Part shown: positions 13,474-25,450 of the stretch, piece after piece
How the letters are laid out: each line of letters begins with the position of its first letter
How positions within the stretch are numbered: position 1 is the first letter of the stretch
DNA from: Bacillota bacterium
GTDB lineage: Bacteria; Bacillota; Clostridia; Peptostreptococcales; Anaerovoracaceae
Reading direction: 5' to 3'
Assembly: GCA_029008005.1 (NCBI GenBank)
Contig: JAQXIX010000029.1
Location: 1 to 64,000 of the forward strand
Length of the DNA stretch: 64,000 nucleotides
Translations under genes and position numbers: made by a program
The notes under the pieces: generated by a model
The model's input: the letters and a program-made list of their open reading frames with translations, nothing else
Databases searched by the model: none
What the model was told of the DNA's origin: nothing

Positions 13474-14478
13474 TTACAATTCAAGCAGGGCGGGGCTGAC
13501 CGTAATTACGATTAATACCATAAGAAATACTGTAAGAGGAAGAGTGAGTTTTGTCTCCGCAATTCGCCCGCGCTCCTCGCAGTTTTTCTTTCTGTTCAGC
13601 CACAGAACTTCACTTTCGTTGAGAAGTTCCTGCACAAGATCTACACCCTTGCTGACATTGTCACTTATTATATTGCTTATTCTCATCAGATCCGCCGAAC
13701 CGGACTGTCTTGCAAACTCTCTGAATTCTCTGCTGAAAGATCCGTTCGTCTGACGAATGGTTGTATATATGTTTTTCATACTGCTGCAGAAATAATCGTC
13801 ATCCTTTTCATCATACCGGAGGCTTGCCTCAACTGACCGCTGAAAAGCGGTGTTGAGGACAAGTCCTGCGTTAAGAAGAAGAGTAAGCCGCTGACAGAAC
13901 TCCGGCAGCTGAATTGCAATTGAATTCTGCTGCTCTTTCTTCATCTTCTGCAGAGGGGCATATCTGTTTTTGACAAGAAGAAAGAGCATGAAGATAATGC
14001 CGGCAATAATGACAGCTGTGTTACTGCTTTTCTCAACCTTCCAGTATATTTTCTCACCTGAAGACAGGCGAGAGGGGAGGGCAACAGAATCGGCGGAAAT
14101 GTCATCGTTAAATGACGATACTATCCGGTTAAGTTCACCTGAGACAGCTTCCTTATGACTGATTTCGCTCTCAGGCACAGTGTCTCCGGAATTCCTGCCG
14201 GTTTTCTCTGAATTTCTGGGGTCAAGGCGAACTGTATAGGTTTTTTTTAGCTGCCCTTCATCAGTTGTTACAGTAGCTGTAATTTTGGAACTTTCCGAGT
14301 CGGATCCTTCTTCGGGTCGAACCATATACAGCATGTTATCTCGCTTTTCTAAGGAAATTCCTTCGGTAAGGTATGATGCGAGGCAGTCTGAAACCAGCAG
14401 TGCAAGCCCCAGAATAAGAACTGCGGTAATTTGTTTTTTTAGTTTCTTAAGGCAATCCTCCTTGCTATATTTCAACAT
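13474..14478 (-). CDS. Type II secretion system F domain protein (TadC-like)
   Basis: T2SF-like pattern (LPEFCQRLTLLLNAGLVLNTAF ... C-terminal TM) in Tad gene order. Confidence 0.75.
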   Translation of the reverse strand: MLKYSKEDCLKKLKKQITAVLILGLALLVSDCLASYLTEGISLEKRDNMLYMVRPEEGSDSESSKITATVTTDEGQLKKTYTVRLDPRNSEKTGRNSGDTVPESEISHKEAVSGELNRIVSSFNDDISADSVALPSRLSSGEKIYWKVEKSSNTAVIIAGIIFMLFLLVKNRYAPLQKMKKEQQNSIAIQLPEFCQRLTLLLNAGLVLNTAFQRSVEASLRYDEKDDDYFCSSMKNIYTTIRQTNGSFSREFREFARQSGSADLMRISNIISDNVSKGVDLVQELLNESEVLWLNRKKNCEERGRIAETKLTLPLTVFLMVLIVITVSPALLEL

Positions 14479-15211
14479 TTGAAATCCTTTCCATCATGAC
14501 TGCTCCGGCAGCAGTTGCGGCCAATGCAACCGTCATGATAATACGTCCGCCTATAGTTGTATACAGAGGCTCAATGTACGAGGATGAAACAAGATTCATA
14601 AGAGCCAGCATTACAGGCGGCATAAGAGCGATAAGGCGGCCTTCAAGCTTTTTCTGGGAAGTTATTGCTTCAATTTCCCGCTTAATATTCATTTTATCGG
14701 TAATCATATCGCAGCTGCGGCTAATAACCTTTTCCAGGTCACCGCCGAGATTTCGGCAAGTTGTATAGACCTGAACGAAGCTGCGTATGTCTTCACAGTG
14801 GCTTCTGCCGGCAAAATCGGCTAGGAGAACACTGTCACTTTCGTTATTGTCTCTGATAGACAGGCACATATAGTGAAGCTCCTTCAGAAGACATGAGTCA
14901 GGCGGAAGTGTCAGAGCAAGATTTTCCTCTGCTTCAATCAGCGCTTCTGACATCTGTCTTCCCGAAGAAACGGAAGCTGACAGGGAATACAGAAGATCCT
15001 TGAATTCGGCCTGCAATACCGACAGTCGCCTGTCAGCAAGATATGTTTCATAATAGGGACGTATTTTTAATACAAATAAGCCTGTGGCTGCCGAAATAAT
15101 AAGGGACCTGTAAAAGAGAAATGAGAAAAGGAATAACACCGTATATCCCACCGAATAAAAAACTGTCTTTTCTTTTGCTGAAAGATCATATTTCGAGTAA
15201 TCCCGTATCAT
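14465..15211 (-). CDS. Type II secretion system F domain protein (TadB-like)
   Basis: T2SF features (FKDLLYSLSASVSSGRQMSEAL ... NLGGDLEKVISRSCDMITDKMNIKREIEAITSQKKLEGRLIALMP). Confidence 0.82.
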   Translation of the reverse strand: MIRDYSKYDLSAKEKTVFYSVGYTVLFLFSFLFYRSLIISAATGLFVLKIRPYYETYLADRRLSVLQAEFKDLLYSLSASVSSGRQMSEALIEAEENLALTLPPDSCLLKELHYMCLSIRDNNESDSVLLADFAGRSHCEDIRSFVQVYTTCRNLGGDLEKVISRSCDMITDKMNIKREIEAITSQKKLEGRLIALMPPVMLALMNLVSSSYIEPLYTTIGGRIIMTVALAATAAGAVMMERISNVEI

Positions 15212-16388
15212 TTATCAGTTTCTCCCTGTGTATGAGTCTGTTTCCTGTCAGACCTGTATCTATGCGATAAAGTGAATTAGTTACTATAGAGTTATCTTTT
15301 ACAGAGTCAAGCTCTGCAATTTCCATAACGCGCCGATGACCGTCTTTCATACGGCTCATGTGAATAATCACATCTATTCCCTCGGCAATCTGATTTCGTA
15401 TGGCGTGAACAGGATAATCAACGGCCTGCATGAACATTGCTTCGAGCCTTTTGAGCATACCGGAAATGCTGTTGGCATGACCTGTGCTCAGACTTCCGGA
15501 GTGACCTGTATTCATAGCGTTTATCATGTCAAAAACTTCGGCGCCTCGCACCTCTCCGATGATGATTCTGTCAGGGCGCATTCGCAGACTTGTTTTCACA
15601 AGCAAAGCCATATCGACAGCGCCCTTGCCCCGCACGTTACCGCTTCTGCATTCCATTCTGACGATGTTTTTTACCTGCTTTATCTGGAGCTCAGCGGAGT
15701 CTTCTATTACGATTACTCTTTCGTCCGGAGGAATCAGCTGCGCCAGTACGTTAAGTAAAGTGGTCTTGCCGCTGGAGGTTCCGCCGCATACGAAACAGTT
15801 GTATCCTGATTTGACAAGGGCGTCCAGCAGCTTCGCAGCTTCCAGTGTAAGTGTGTCGTTTCTTATCAGGTCGGCCATTGTCATTACCTCTTCCGGAAAT
15901 TTTCTTATTGTCAGAATTGGACCGTTCAGTGCAATGTTGCCGTATACTGCATTTACACGGGAGCCGTCACTAAGTCTGGCGTCGACAATGGGATTAAGCT
16001 CGTTGATTTCTCTGTGGACCTTACCTGCTATTCTGCGAATAAGCTCCTCAAGACTCTCTGTTGAATCGAAAGAAAGAGAGGTTTTCTCGATTTTTCCTCT
16101 GCGTTCAATGAATATGTTGTCTTTTCCGTTTACCATTATTTCTGAAATGCTTTTATCGTCTATCAAAGGCTGGAGTATATCCATTTCACTTCTCAGAGAG
16201 AGAAAGAGTCTCTCGATGAGCCTGCTGTTTTCATTGTGACTGCAGATTTGAGCCTTGGGGAGAGAGAAAATGTACGATTCGATTCTTTCAAGGGCTTCTT
16301 CATCTGTCAGACTGTCTCCCTGCTCTGAGAGGAGAAGACGTATTTCAGAAATATATACAGAAACATCTTCTGAAGAATAATATGACAT
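15186..16388 (-). CDS. CpaF/TadA-family pilus assembly ATPase
   Basis: Secretion ATPase motifs (VCGGTSSGKTTLLNVLAQLIPPDERVIVIEDSAELQI, LRMRPDRIIIGEVRGAEVFDMINAMNTGHSGSLSTGHANS). Start probably 16388; track ORF begins 16445. Confidence 0.93.
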   Translation of the reverse strand: MSYYSSEDVSVYISEIRLLLSEQGDSLTDEEALERIESYIFSLPKAQICSHNENSRLIERLFLSLRSEMDILQPLIDDKSISEIMVNGKDNIFIERRGKIEKTSLSFDSTESLEELIRRIAGKVHREINELNPIVDARLSDGSRVNAVYGNIALNGPILTIRKFPEEVMTMADLIRNDTLTLEAAKLLDALVKSGYNCFVCGGTSSGKTTLLNVLAQLIPPDERVIVIEDSAELQIKQVKNIVRMECRSGNVRGKGAVDMALLVKTSLRMRPDRIIIGEVRGAEVFDMINAMNTGHSGSLSTGHANSISGMLKRLEAMFMQAVDYPVHAIRNQIAEGIDVIIHMSRMKDGHRRVMEIAELDSVKDNSIVTNSLYRIDTGLTGNRLIHREKLINDTGLLEI

Positions 16389-16604
16389 AAATCCCAATAT
16401 TTTCCTTTCTGAAAAGATACTACCACAACAGAAAAGCTTTTGCAAGAATAAAATGCAAAATAAGTAAAATAATGGAAAAAAGTATAGTCGAATTTTAGTA
16501 AAATGCGGGGTCTTTTAATAAAAATTAGCTACTGTTAATTTTGTACACAGTATGTATTATGATGGTAAAGATGTAGTCATTATTTGTATTTGAGAGGTTT
16601 TATT

Positions 16605-19293: not shown

Positions 19294-19379
19294 TTGTTTA
19301 GGCCTCCTCTCCTAATGGCTTTACACAACTAAAATATATAACTAAAATATATAATAACATAAATATGTGTTCAGGATAC

Positions 19380-19623
19380 TGCCATATTGCCATATATTCA
19401 GTATTTATGATTGATTTAGACAAAAATTATACAAACAGAAAAAATTTTTTTTATATATGGCAGTTTTTGCTTGAAACTAAAGGATTTTAGGAAGCTTTTG
19501 CCATATAGGATTTTAATAAAGTGTATATGGCAGTTTCAGACCCTAAATTGCCATATACGATGAAATAAAACCTGTTATGTATAATTTTTGCCGTATGCGA
19601 AGATAATAATCCTGCTATGGCAA
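19380..19623. repeat. Cluster of eight TTGCCATATA/TATATGGCAA-type motifs
   Basis: Sites at 19380-19387, 19387-19396, 19454-19463, 19498-19507, 19524-19533, 19548-19557, 19588-19597 (TTGCCGTATG) and 19614-19623 (GCTATGGCAA), in both orientations. Confidence 0.8.
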
Positions 19624-19694
19624 TCGAGAGACAGTACTTCACTGCAGTTCGGCTGTTTTCAATGGCTTTGCGGATGTTTCAGTAAAAACAGCCA

Positions 19695-19888
19695 ATGGCG
19701 GTGCGACCGGGGGAGGGGAGTATGCTTTCGCAGAGATGGTTGCGATTTCAAGGGGGAGCGAAGGCGGGAGGCTAGAAAGTCCGTGGGGGGCGGTTCCCGC
19801 GGACTTGTCTTGTCGACCCGGCAAGCGATACGTTAGAAATCGCCCGGCTCGAGGACAAAATACTCCCCTCCCCCGGTCGCACTGCCAT
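19695..19888. repeat. Large inverted-repeat element: structured ncRNA or MITE/REP-like element candidate
   Basis: 29-nt arms 19695-19723 and 19860-19888 are complementary apart from one G/T position. Nested pairings: 19742-19749/19836-19843, 19777-19787/19796-19806 and 19809-19815/19819-19825. Confidence 0.85.
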
Positions 19889-20011
19889 CCGCAATTATTT
19901 ACCGAAATACTATGACGATTCATTTCAAACTGGCTTATTTCTGCATGAAAGTGTATAATCAATGATATATTTACCGTAGCGAATCGTGACGGATATGGAG
20001 GAAAAAGACAA

Positions 20012-20833
20012 GTGAAAGTAATAGGAATAGGTGATAATGTAGTCGACAGGTATATAGACAGAAGAATAATGTTTCCCGGTGGAAATTCAGTAAATTTCGC
20101 TGTCTATGCGAAACAGTGCGGAGTTGAATCGGCATACCTTGGAAATATTGCGGATGATCCGGAAGGGCATCTGGTAAAAGAATCTCTCATCAGCCTTGGA
20201 GTTGATGTGTCCAATTGTCCGCTGCAGGAAGGAATGGCTACAGAACGTTGCGACGTAGTGCTAAATGACGGAGACAGACAATTTGTCGGATGTACATACG
20301 GTCCCGGTGTTTGGACACCTTTCACAATTGAAGAAAAACACATGGAATATCTCAAAGGCTTTGATCTTATTCACTGCGGCTGCTACGGAGAGATGGCCGA
20401 TGAAATTCACAAGCTGTCCGGCATTGATGCAATGAAGACATATGATTTTTCAGCCGAAGAAGAATACAGAACGGATGAGTATCTGGAGAAAGTATGCCCT
20501 TATATAGATATTGCACTTTTCTCAGCAGAAGCCATGAATAGTGATGAAATCGACGCTGTAATGAAAAAAGCATACTCACTTGGCGCGAAAAAAGTGCTTG
20601 TGACCATGGGAACTAAAGGTCAGCTCCTGTGGGACGGAGAAAAGGTACACAAGGGAAAAGTCAAGCTGATCGATGCTGTTGATACAATGGGAGCGGGAGA
20701 TTCATTCTTTACGGCTTTTGCAATAGCAATGCTCAGAGGACTGGAGTATCCGGAGGCATTTGATTACGCAGCGGAATTCAGTGCGAAGACATGTCTCACA
20801 GAAGGAGCATTCGGACTGGGAAAAGAATACTGA
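20012..20833 (+). CDS. PfkB-family sugar kinase, fructoselysine 6-kinase-like (FrlD-like)
   Basis: PfkB features (FPGGNSVNFAVYAKQCG ... DTMGAGDSFFTAFAIA) with FrlD-like N-terminus (KVIGIGDNVVDRY); linked to an FrlB-like SIS protein. Confidence 0.8.
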   Translation: MKVIGIGDNVVDRYIDRRIMFPGGNSVNFAVYAKQCGVESAYLGNIADDPEGHLVKESLISLGVDVSNCPLQEGMATERCDVVLNDGDRQFVGCTYGPGVWTPFTIEEKHMEYLKGFDLIHCGCYGEMADEIHKLSGIDAMKTYDFSAEEEYRTDEYLEKVCPYIDIALFSAEAMNSDEIDAVMKKAYSLGAKKVLVTMGTKGQLLWDGEKVHKGKVKLIDAVDTMGAGDSFFTAFAIAMLRGLEYPEAFDYAAEFSAKTCLTEGAFGLGKEY

Positions 20834-20834
20834 T

Positions 20835-21551
20835 ATGGCAAAAAACACTCTCAAACTCGATGTCAAAATCGCAAAAGAAATTGAATACTGGATAGAATCG
20901 GGAATATACGGTGAGGGTGACCGGCTTCCTTCGGAGCGACACCTGGCAGAACATTTCGGTGTTCAGAGGGAGACAATAAGAAAGGCACTTCGGTTCCTGA
21001 AAGACAGAGGAAGAATCATAACGAAGAAGAATTCCGGACACTATATTGCATCGAAGAGAATCACATTTGATCTGAATGCTTTCAGTTCGAGAAAAAAGAT
21101 AATGGAAAAGACAGGAAAGGCAACATTTGTAAAGCTCTTGACCATGGAAGTGATTCAGGTGCCTGATAAGATGCTAAAAAAAACCGGATGGCCGGCGGGA
21201 ACCATGGCTTATAAGATAATGCGCCTCAGATATGCGGCAGGTCAGCCGGAAGGACTTGAACGAGCTCACATCAGATGCGATCTGGTGCCGAATCTTTCGG
21301 AGACAGATGTTCACAATAAGTCTATTTATTCTTTTCTTAATAAAGAATACGGAATCAACATCGCAAAATCCACAACCACCGTATCGGTAGTAAATACAAA
21401 CGGTCTCGAATCGGAACTGTTGAATACCAAGTATTCGAAACCGGCTCTCAGATATGAAGGACTCGTGTATGACAGACAGGGAAGACTGATTGAGTTTTTT
21501 GACGATATAATATTGAAAGACAGAGTTCAGTTTGTGAAAAACGATATATAG
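20835..21551 (+). CDS. GntR-family regulator with UTRA domain (first copy)
   Basis: N-terminal wHTH (GEGDRLPSERHLAEHFGVQRETIRKALRFLKDRG) and UTRA-like C-terminus. Start MAKNTLKLDVK at 20835. Confidence 0.88.
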   Translation: MAKNTLKLDVKIAKEIEYWIESGIYGEGDRLPSERHLAEHFGVQRETIRKALRFLKDRGRIITKKNSGHYIASKRITFDLNAFSSRKKIMEKTGKATFVKLLTMEVIQVPDKMLKKTGWPAGTMAYKIMRLRYAAGQPEGLERAHIRCDLVPNLSETDVHNKSIYSFLNKEYGINIAKSTTTVSVVNTNGLESELLNTKYSKPALRYEGLVYDRQGRLIEFFDDIILKDRVQFVKNDI

Positions 21552-21559
21552 CAGAAGCA

Positions 21560-22300
21560 ATGAATAAAAAAATTATCGAAAAAAAACCGGATACGAAAGC
21601 TATATGTGACGGTATAAGACGGCGTATCGAACAGGGAAGCCTGCTGCCGGGAGAGAGGCTTCCGGCAGAACGCGAACTTGCCGAAGTAATAGGTGTGGGC
21701 AGGGCGGCAGTTCAGAATGCATACAATAAGCTTAGGGATGAAGGGTACCTGACAAAGCGCAAAGGCTTCGGAACATTTGTAAGCAGAACGGAAGAGAACA
21801 GAATGAATTTCGAATTTCTGTCACAGACGGGAAATTCCGGAATAACTGCTATGCTCAATAATTACAATGTCAGCACGTCCAACAAAGTCTTCAGCCAGGG
21901 TATTACAACTGAAAGGTTTTTCACACATAAGCTTGGAATTCCGGAAAAAAGCGATGTCTTTTTTTTACACAGAGTAAGATACGGAGACGGGGAACCGCTT
22001 ATTGTGGAATATACATATCTGCCGGCAGAAGAGTTCCCGGGAGTGGACAAGGTGGATTTCTCTAAAGTGTCTCTGTATGACTATATGGATGCCAAGGGCA
22101 GAATGCCGGTGCTGTTTAACGAGAAACTGATGACGATTGATGCTCCTGTTCACGAAGCGAAGCTTCTAGGTGTAAATGCCGGCACTCCGCTATACTATGT
22201 GGAATTTATCTGTTTTGACAAAAACAGGAAAATTGTCGAATACACTGAGAGCTACGCCAGAAGCGACAGGTTTCAGCTGAATTTCACAAATAGAGTGTAA
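21560..22300 (+). CDS. GntR-family regulator with UTRA domain (second copy)
   Basis: LLPGERLPAERELAEVIGVGRAAVQNAYNKLRDEGYLTKRKGFGTFV plus UTRA domain. Confidence 0.9.
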   Translation: MNKKIIEKKPDTKAICDGIRRRIEQGSLLPGERLPAERELAEVIGVGRAAVQNAYNKLRDEGYLTKRKGFGTFVSRTEENRMNFEFLSQTGNSGITAMLNNYNVSTSNKVFSQGITTERFFTHKLGIPEKSDVFFLHRVRYGDGEPLIVEYTYLPAEEFPGVDKVDFSKVSLYDYMDAKGRMPVLFNEKLMTIDAPVHEAKLLGVNAGTPLYYVEFICFDKNRKIVEYTESYARSDRFQLNFTNRV

Positions 22301-22346
22301 TTTTAAATTGGTATATGAATCGACCTGATATTGATAAATTAAGGTT

Positions 22347-22375
22347 AAAGAGCTTTTTTAAAAGCTCTTTTTTTG
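22347..22375 (+). terminator. Rho-independent terminator
   Basis: AAAGAGCTTTT/AAAAGCTCTTT stem followed by a T run. Confidence 0.8.
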
Positions 22376-22487
22376 ATTGGTATAGTATTTATATCGAATT
22401 GGCATGTCAAAATCCTTCGCAATTGCTTTTATTTGATTGAATTTGTTGTTATTCTATAGATGATAATAATTTTGAGAGGAGACTTCT

Positions 22488-23498
22488 ATGCGTAATTTCA
22501 ATTTAGAAGAGTATATGAAAGAATCGGAAGCTGCTTATGGCAGAAGAGCCGATATCGAAAAAATGGCGGACACACTTCACGCCAGAGGATATGACAATAT
22601 TGTAGTAATAGGAATCGGCGGAACATGGGCTGAATGGCATCCTGTAGTACATATCGCAAGACATTACACAGATGTTCCTATTTATCTGGAAAACGCTGCT
22701 GAGCTTTGTATCAAAACAGATAAGAGATACCTGAACAAGAATTCACTGGTCGTTACTTCTTCAGAGTCAGGAAACACAAAGGAAGTTGTTGAGGCAGTTA
22801 AGATGTGTAAGGAAATGGGTGTTGAAGTGGCATGTCTCACTAAAAACGCCGATTCACAGCTGGGTCAGCTTTGTGATTACGTGGTGCCTGACTGCACAGG
22901 AGACTGTGAACATGCATATATGATGTGCTTCATGTTCATGCTCAGACTTCTCTGGAACAGAGGAGAATTCCCTGCATATGAGAGATTCGCAGATCAGATG
23001 GTAAACCTTCCTGAAAACCTCATCAGAATCAGAGAGGAATTCGAGCCTAGAGCTGCAGAAATCGCACGTAACTATGCGAAGGAACCGTATTCGATATTCA
23101 CAGGATCGGGAGCTCTCTGGGGTGAGACATATCTGTTCTCAATGTGTATTCTCGAAGAAATGCAGTGGGTAAGAACAAAATCAGTTACTTCAGCAGATTT
23201 CTTCCACGGCACACTCGAACTCGTTGAAAAGGATGTACCTGTATTCGTATTCAAGGGCGAAGATGAATACAGACCTCTTGATGAGAGAGTTGAAAGATTT
23301 TGCGAAAAGCTTACAGACAAGCTGACTGTAATTGATACAAAGGCATTTGAACTTAAAGGAATCGATGACGAATTCAGAGTAATCTGTTCACCAATGATTC
23401 TGACATCACTCGTAACAGAAAGACTGGCAGCTCACTATGAACTGAATACAGGACACAGCCTTAAGTTCAGAAGATATTACAGACAGTTTGATTATTAA
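22488..23498 (+). CDS. SIS-domain protein, fructoselysine-6-phosphate deglycase-like (FrlB-like)
   Basis: SIS motifs (VVIGIGGTWAEWHPV, SLVVTSSESGNTKEVVEAV) and FrlB-like C-terminus; linkage to an FrlD-like kinase. Confidence 0.78.
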   Translation: MRNFNLEEYMKESEAAYGRRADIEKMADTLHARGYDNIVVIGIGGTWAEWHPVVHIARHYTDVPIYLENAAELCIKTDKRYLNKNSLVVTSSESGNTKEVVEAVKMCKEMGVEVACLTKNADSQLGQLCDYVVPDCTGDCEHAYMMCFMFMLRLLWNRGEFPAYERFADQMVNLPENLIRIREEFEPRAAEIARNYAKEPYSIFTGSGALWGETYLFSMCILEEMQWVRTKSVTSADFFHGTLELVEKDVPVFVFKGEDEYRPLDERVERFCEKLTDKLTVIDTKAFELKGIDDEFRVICSPMILTSLVTERLAAHYELNTGHSLKFRRYYRQFDY

Positions 23499-23510
23499 GA
23501 GGTGGTATAA

Positions 23511-24587
23511 ATGACACAGTCGATTGTTTCATTGCAGCATGTCAATAAATACTTCGGGGACAACCATGTTATCAGAGACCTTAATCTGGAAGTTTATGAG
23601 GGAGAATTCCTGACTTTGCTGGGACCTTCAGGTTGCGGCAAGACGACTATTCTCAGAATGGTTGCGGGCTTTGAAGATGCCACTGACGGTATGATACTGG
23701 TAGAAGGGGAGAGAGTAGAGGACAAGGAAGCCTTTGAAAGAGACGTAAACACTGTATTTCAGAGTTATGCCCTTTTCCCGCACATGACTGTGTATGATAA
23801 CATTGCCTACGGACTTAAGGTAAAGAAAGTTCCGAAAGAAGAAATAAAAGTAAGAGTTAAGGAAATGCTTGAGCTTGTGCAGCTCGTCGGATTCGAGGGC
23901 AGGAAGCCGGATGAAATGTCCGGTGGCCAAAAGCAGAGAGTAGCCATTGCGAGAGCACTCATAAACAATCCGAAGGTTCTTCTCCTCGACGAACCTCTCG
24001 GAGCACTTGACTTGCAGCTGAGAAAACAGATGCAGATTGAACTTAAACGTCTGCAGCAGAAGCTGAATATTACTTTCGTTTATGTTACCCACGATCAGGA
24101 AGAAGCGATGACGATGAGTGACAGAATCGCAGTAATGAGCAAAGGCGTGATTCAGCAGCTGGCAGCACCGGATGAAATCTATAACAGACCGAAAACCAGG
24201 TTTGTTGCGGGATTCATAGGAGAATCAAACATCTACAGCGGTAAAGTTACTGAAATAAAAGATGGAACAGCAGTGGTGGAAACAGAATTCGGAGTGGGAC
24301 GTATGCCTGCAGAAGATTTCAGCGTTGGAGAAGATGTTCACCTCTGTATCAGACCGGAAGTGATTCAGTACAGCAAAGAACCTGTTGAAGGATTCTCGAT
24401 TTCAGGGCAGGTTAAGAACAGAATATTCGTGGGATCAAATCACAGAACACTCGTGACTATGTCAAACGGATATGATTCCAGAATCAACAGAGTTAAGAAC
24501 GACAGCAGTTATAAAGAAGGCGATACTCTGTATCTTTTCTGGGAAATGGAAGACGTAACCGGAATCCATACACAGGAGGGAGAGTAA
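23511..24587 (+). CDS. ABC transporter ATP-binding protein, PotA-like
   Basis: Walker A GPSGCGKTTILRMVAGFE, signature MSGGQKQRVAIARAL, TOBE-like C-terminus. Confidence 0.9.
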   Translation: MTQSIVSLQHVNKYFGDNHVIRDLNLEVYEGEFLTLLGPSGCGKTTILRMVAGFEDATDGMILVEGERVEDKEAFERDVNTVFQSYALFPHMTVYDNIAYGLKVKKVPKEEIKVRVKEMLELVQLVGFEGRKPDEMSGGQKQRVAIARALINNPKVLLLDEPLGALDLQLRKQMQIELKRLQQKLNITFVYVTHDQEEAMTMSDRIAVMSKGVIQQLAAPDEIYNRPKTRFVAGFIGESNIYSGKVTEIKDGTAVVETEFGVGRMPAEDFSVGEDVHLCIRPEVIQYSKEPVEGFSISGQVKNRIFVGSNHRTLVTMSNGYDSRINRVKNDSSYKEGDTLYLFWEMEDVTGIHTQEGE

Positions 24588-25450
24588 TGGCAAAAGGTAA
24601 ATTGAGAAACAATGCACCGGCCATTGCTACAGCAGGCCCGGTATCGGTTTGGATGATTATTTTCGTACTTCTGCCGCTGATTTATATTCTCGTTATCAGT
24701 TTTATGACAAGAAGCTCATACGGTGGGATAGATTATACATTTACACTCGATAACTATAAGGAAATGCTGCAGCCTCTGTATCTGTCGGTAATTGTGAAAT
24801 CCTTTAAGCTGGCGTTCCTGACTACGGCAATCTGTCTGGTTGTTGGTTATCCGCTGGCGTACTGGATTGCAAGTAAACCTTTCAAGACGGCAGGGAATCT
24901 GCTTATGCTTGTAATGATTCCGTACTGGACAAGTTCTCTTGTTAGGCTCTACAGTACAAATCTGCTGGTTATGCCTAACGGATTTATTAACACGGCGCTC
25001 ATGAAGCTGGGACTCATTGATCAGCCTCTTGATTTGCTGTACAGCGACACAATGGTACTGGTGGGACTGCTTGTTACATGCCTGCCGTTCTCGGTTCTGC
25101 CGCTTTACAGTTCAATAGAAAAGATGGACAAGTCCCTTATTGAGGCGTCAAAGGATCTCGGAGCAAACTCCGTGCAGACATTCCTGAGAGTAACGATTCC
25201 TCAGACAGCACCGGGAATAGCAGGATGTATTATTCTCGTATTCATACCGTCTCTGGGTATGTACTACGTACCTGAAATCCTCGGTGGAGGAAAGGTAATG
25301 CTCATAGGAACACTGGTTAAGAATCAGTTCCTCGTAACAAAGAACTGGCCTTTCGGTGCATCCATGGCAATACTTCTGATTCTCATTACTCTGGCAATCA
25401 TGCTCATATATACCAGATTTAACAAGCTGGAAGATCTGGAGGTGTGCTGA
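24587..25450 (+). CDS. ABC transporter permease, PotB-like
   Basis: Multi-TM permease with EAA loop (IEASKDLGANSVQTFLRVTIPQTAPGI). Confidence 0.88.
   Translation: MAKGKLRNNAPAIATAGPVSVWMIIFVLLPLIYILVISFMTRSSYGGIDYTFTLDNYKEMLQPLYLSVIVKSFKLAFLTTAICLVVGYPLAYWIASKPFKTAGNLLMLVMIPYWTSSLVRLYSTNLLVMPNGFINTALMKLGLIDQPLDLLYSDTMVLVGLLVTCLPFSVLPLYSSIEKMDKSLIEASKDLGANSVQTFLRVTIPQTAPGIAGCIILVFIPSLGMYYVPEILGGGKVMLIGTLVKNQFLVTKNWPFGASMAILLILITLAIMLIYTRFNKLEDLEVC

Follow-up and report, generated by a model that had tools for sequence, protein, structure and literature searches.

The closest described systems to the GC-rich hairpin at positions 19695-19888 of the window, the stretch of 64,000 nucleotides analysed here, are MITEs, the REP / REPIN / BIME repeats and the structured RNAs of Rfam. 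The family to which this hairpin belongs resembles MITEs in that its members are short, non-coding, multi-copy, dispersed, intergenic and built on inverted repeats, in that one site (locus B) shows an insertion polymorphism with an empty site, and in that copies in one genome (G324) have ends matching those of an autonomous ISLre2-type insertion sequence (IS). However, terminal repeats of the MITE kind are shared only in G324 and by the paralogues L085/L072, and neither between loci A and B nor by the window copy; outside G324, copy-to-copy identity otherwise lies in an internal core with an invariant loop, and the arms are unrelated. Like REP, REPIN and BIME elements, the hairpins are intergenic palindromes near gene 3' ends and sometimes occur as inverted pairs, but they measure 190-380 nt instead of 20-40 bp and show no correlation with Y1 (RAYT-type) genes. 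With structured RNAs of Rfam they share a covarying rod of a length similar to 6S RNA, although their pairing, in contrast to that of 6S, is wobble-poor and symmetric.

Analysis of the sequence reveals that all helices listed in the earlier sequence-only reading are present in the window hairpin (Table 1), including the outer arms, which pair over 29 positions with a single G/T. The nested inverted repeat is far above chance, as the RNA fold of positions 19640-19910 has a minimum free energy of -146 kcal/mol against -96 +/- 4.9 in shuffled sequences (z = -10.2), none of 200 being as low. The contrast in composition described earlier is also seen, with GC content rising from 0.22-0.37 in the AT-rich DNA upstream to 0.65 in the element. 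The element had been called branched as well, which is not borne out, since its inner helices stack as a single long rod with internal loops. On the minus strand, a T-run (TGGCTGTTTTTAC) follows the hairpin.

Table 1. Features of the window hairpin and of its immediate flanks
Feature	Position	Strand	Remark
5' arm of outer stem, locus-specific	19695..19723	+	complementary to 19860-19888
Basal internal loop, 5' strand, TTC-GCAG (family consensus TCC-GCAG)	19727..19733	+	CGCAG conservation
Middle stem, 5' strand, GCGATTTC	19742..19749	+	pairs with 19836-19843; covarying alignment columns 29-36
Apical hairpin, AAGTCCGTGGG (19777-19787), loop, CCCGCGGACTT (19796-19806)	19777..19806	+	covarying helix 5
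Middle stem, 3' strand, GAAATCGC	19836..19843	+	pairing with GCGATTTC; covariation
Basal internal loop, 3' strand, CGA-GGAC	19850..19856	+	GAGGA conservation
3' arm of outer stem	19860..19888	+	complementary to 19695-19723
Match to family model R2	19714..19869	+	97 bits, E 1.7e-24; sole copy in window
Additional outer pairing, TTGCGG(ATG) / (CAT)CCGCAA	19668-19676 / 19886-19894		sequence check
Separate flanking hairpin, GGCTGTTTT / AAAACAGCC	19651-19659 / 19685-19693		sequence check

The window copy lies between divergent genes for an fn3-domain protein (from 19293, minus strand) and a PfkB kinase (from 20012). In the AT-rich stretch that separates the hairpin from the fn3 gene, short palindromic repeats, TGCCATATA / TATATGGCA, are clustered at 19378-19624; they occur at least six times, in both orientations, and look operator-like. 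From 20012 to 25450, genes for the PfkB kinase, two GntR/UTRA-like regulators, a SIS-domain protein and an ABC transporter run in one direction; by domain content they resemble a candidate utilisation operon of the fructoselysine or glucoselysine type. Further away, at 14465-16445 on the minus strand, there are Tad pilus-like genes, one for an ATPase and one for a TadB-like membrane protein, as judged by their translations.

A MITE/REP-like element would be expected in dispersed copies. BLASTN against the host genome (G000) returned the element itself only; against relatives it returned a diverged homologous core, which in one same-genus relative is 69% identical over 131 nt, has rpsL on one side and the end of rpoC on the other, and is enclosed by a different inverted repeat. 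A second match among the relatives (L004) is a 21-nt chance match within an aminotransferase gene. A covariance model made from two sequences (R1), searched against 49 genomes of the genus, identified 13 copies in 10 of them. The refined covariance model (R2), searched against 397 genomes drawn from the order, found copies in 26, all of them in the window's own taxonomic family and spread over six genera; by this model the host genome has three copies. A degenerate pattern scan of GTDB contigs gave 82 loci, two from Mogibacterium (Anaerovoracaceae in NCBI) among them, and R2 run on these loci made 68 matches, many per genome (up to about ten), which come from nearly exclusively rumen and gut Bacillota assemblies and amount to about 60 further loci. 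Chance matches, recovered by the pattern but not by the model, account for some 15 of these loci, most of which come from high-GC genomes (Salinispora, Streptomyces, Bifidobacterium and others). Plasmid and phage collections gave no match to the element, and literature searches found no description of this hairpin family. The window hairpin is one copy of a previously unlisted dispersed repeat family of Mogibacterium-group gut bacteria.

Each copy is a rod made of outer arms, a basal internal loop, a covarying middle stem and an apical stem. The outer arms are inverted, about 20-60 bp long and different in sequence between loci, and the core is better conserved than the arms; the arm sequence of the window copy has no other occurrence in its own genome or in the other family loci examined. 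The asymmetric basal internal loop, UCC-GCA-G / C-GA-GGA, is invariant or nearly so. Its invariance in 68 of 68 members comes in part from the search pattern, but it also holds in members found without the pattern: among the 13 genus members from the covariance search, GAGGA is unchanged in all 13 and CGCAG in all except one, which has CGCAA. At least two core types exist, which differ in the apical part and measure about 125-130 and 135-145 nt; the window copy, with L015, L025 and L017, has the shorter core (type I). Some loci carry an oppositely oriented pair of elements, back to back with about 65-110 bp between them (L086, L071, L091, L083, L049). At one of these sites, the second member of the pair belongs to type I in G004 and G064 and to type II in L091, G008 and G014. 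In G215, the recently amplified copies L200-L206 have arms in which the inner arm motif AAACACGGGCACCC is repeated internally, which produces nested palindromes.

Copies are located mostly at gene 3' ends and with a polarity bias, the window copy between divergent genes being different in this respect. The downstream neighbour is convergent on the element in 42 of the 50 loci with callable genes, and in 18 of these 42 the outer arm ends no more than 13 nt from the stop codon of that neighbour. No neighbour gene is fixed across the family copies.

Copy number and position vary between close relatives, and two loci, with genes named by translation, allow recent copies to be compared. Locus A (L103/L073) is found 3' of the gene for an L,D-transpeptidase; at locus B (L080/L061) the element is flanked by hypA and a gene for an ACT-domain protein. 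The cores of the two loci are 96-98% identical, and this identity stops at the core edges, the arms and flanks being unrelated. Orthologous copies with similarly diverged cores have mostly the same arms, and therefore the unrelated arms at loci A and B are not due to point mutation. G064 and G014 carry the element at locus B; the site is empty in G008, where the ACT protein is 99% identical, and also in G004, G007, G020, G035 and others. The insert is 218 bp long and carries both core and arms, with no clear target duplication at this locus. We also considered that the core may have entered a pre-existing palindrome or terminator, which is rejected at locus B because the empty site has no such stem. 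Compared with L316, locus B in G014 (L317) has four clustered substitutions in one arm, the other arm being unchanged. The paralogues L085/L072 have arms in common and unrelated flanks, indicating that arms can travel with the element.

With dispersed copies that differ between relatives, a 218-bp insertion at locus B and near-identical cores set in unrelated arms, we consider it probable (about 0.68) that the window hairpin belongs to a new family of MITE-like foldback DNA repeats that are mobile, non-autonomous and recognised by the core. Against this mobile reading, old copies still have a deeply conserved basal loop, which suggests some role other than mobility, although the search pattern contributes to the full invariance. 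The sharing of cores between different arms could also result from gene conversion, and the window copy does not sit at a gene end.

A narrower form of the mobile foldback reading, overlapping it in confidence, is a classical MITE with ordinary terminal repeats, belonging to ISLre2 or some other IS family, that has undergone decay of its ends in the genus of the window. Such a possibility is raised by G324, a near-complete genome in which one full arm used as query has 42 matches, with nearly the whole arm matched in some 17. The outer 27 nt of the G324 repeat match both ends of an ISLre2-type IS that is present in many copies with an intact UPF0236 (PF06782) reading frame, and approximate 9-bp target repeats are found, e.g. 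TTCAAAAAT/TACAAAAAT at L208; the common arms of L085/L072 agree with this as well. At L278, L279 and L280 of the same genome, many near-identical ISLre2-type copies lie often beside the hairpin repeat or nested with it, and about six of the ISLre2-type copies are interrupted at a common position, leaving two frames. However, ISLre2 ends on the hairpin repeat are seen in this one genome, and the recent copies at loci A and B have long intact arms that are unrelated to each other and to the ISLre2 ends. In the genus of the window, neither a common terminal repeat nor a clean target duplication was found. The PF06782 transposase was not found in the host genome or in most of the hairpin-bearing genomes, although metagenome-assembled genomes lose IS copies. 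A classical MITE is rather doubtful as an explanation. Of the two repeat classes named in the sequence-only reading, the MITE likeness is retained, through dispersed copies, the empty site and the ISLre2 ends in G324, and the REP likeness is abandoned on size, on anatomy and on the missing Y1/RAYT link, with no PF01797 match in the copy carriers G000, G029, G215 and G324.

The same reading had offered a structured RNA, which could be a stand-alone non-coding RNA family or a 3'-UTR element that has multiplied and whose rod and conserved loop bind a protein. The covariation on which this depends is present and very strong. In the 13-member alignment 39 pairs are supported, 30 of them with both sides changed, and the covariation score is 0.442 against 0.202 +/- 0.017 in shuffled alignments; with 68 members it is 0.682 against 0.190 +/- 0.008, and sliding the partners by one column abolishes the signal. 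An invariant internal loop within an otherwise variable rod, a core conserved above its arms and the polarity-biased location close to stop codons would also fit an RNA.

Pairing is, however, retained across hundreds of compensating changes with few wobbles. RNA helices tolerate G-U pairs on the transcribed strand but not A-C mismatches. Across the 68 members, the well-paired columns contain 2176 Watson-Crick, 31 G-U and 25 A-C pairs, and isolated arm mismatches comprise 24 G-U and 20 A-C. As a control we used 6S RNA, taken from 20 genomes in the genus and treated identically, in place of a tRNA control that was too small; it has 98 G-U and 28 A-C. Type II hairpins, with 67 G-U and 51 A-C, differ from 6S (Fisher p 0.0006), and type I hairpins, to which the window copy belongs, have 41 G-U and 23 A-C, a weak excess (p 0.03; against 6S, p 0.056). 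G-U asymmetry is thus absent in type II and in the pooled set and weak in type I, and for type I the wobble test does not settle between RNA and DNA. With Watson-Crick pairs so predominant and so little difference between the strands, covariation alone does not establish an RNA; DNA hairpins, or palindromes that template switching has mended, would be expected to show such largely symmetric, wobble-poor pairing, and the pattern points to DNA-level pairing or palindrome homogenisation.

Other evidence also argues against an RNA. Copy number and position shift between close relatives, and promoter-like sites are not above shuffle expectation. The earlier reading claimed no known ncRNA family, and neither the window nor the related loci have an Rfam match at gathering score. 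Relaxed E-values add nothing credible, the MIR1858 match (E-value 5.6e-4) being far below its 137-bit cut-off. The 6S identity (RF00013) is rejected, since the 6S of the host genome sits at C41:14962-15143. We therefore consider a structured RNA family unlikely.

Bidirectional terminators or mRNA 3'-end stabilisers with grown stems, whose transcription on both strands would give symmetric pairing, are a very improbable explanation, for although copies lie at 3' ends between convergent genes, the G004 rpoC-rpsL element occupies the place of the relatives' terminators and is followed by TTTCTT, and a T-run follows the minus-strand hairpin of the window, the flanks of 59 loci show no T-run enrichment, no terminator-like site is called in the window region, an ordinary terminator persists beside the element at locus A, and termination does not need an invariant internal loop.

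If the mobile foldback reading is correct, the mobilising machinery would recognise the folded core instead of fixed terminal repeats, and a transposase, which in G324 may be that of ISLre2, would act in trans. Template switching is a documented route by which perfect hairpins are created, mended and maintained (PMC8794818). Switching between the arms during replication, partly into the flanking gene tail, could keep and extend their perfect pairing; covariation that is symmetric between strands and poor in wobbles would then arise with no selection on an RNA. The tail of the neighbouring gene recurs as a significant inverted copy on the far side of the element at 8 of 28 loci (each p < 0.05; 1.4 expected), which means that some palindromes extend into host coding sequence. 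These copies are suggestive of inverted copying without being proof of it. Gene conversion of the core, a genomic donor with the new arms and inverted copying at insertion all fit the origin of new arms, and no donor of arm sequences was found in the DNA searched, which consists of partial genomes. Copies may persist mainly just 3' of stop codons because insertion there would be least harmful. A more specific and tentative version, which we hold to be possible but well short of probable, is that the core alone is recognised and copied as a folded single strand, the arms being formed afresh whenever an insertion occurs, through inverted copying of the DNA next to it, at times with the stop codon of the adjacent gene; such an element would have no terminal repeats of its own and its covariation would mimic that of a structured RNA.

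The hairpins add an unlisted repeat family to a group of poorly studied gut bacteria. They also serve as a warning case, because, judged by covariation alone, the hairpins would be taken for a new RNA family with very strong support, while the near absence of wobble pairs and the insertion polymorphism point to DNA instead. If the arms are indeed renewed with each insertion, the family would break the rule that a mobile element is defined by its ends, and it would offer a natural system for measuring the extension of palindromes by template switching.
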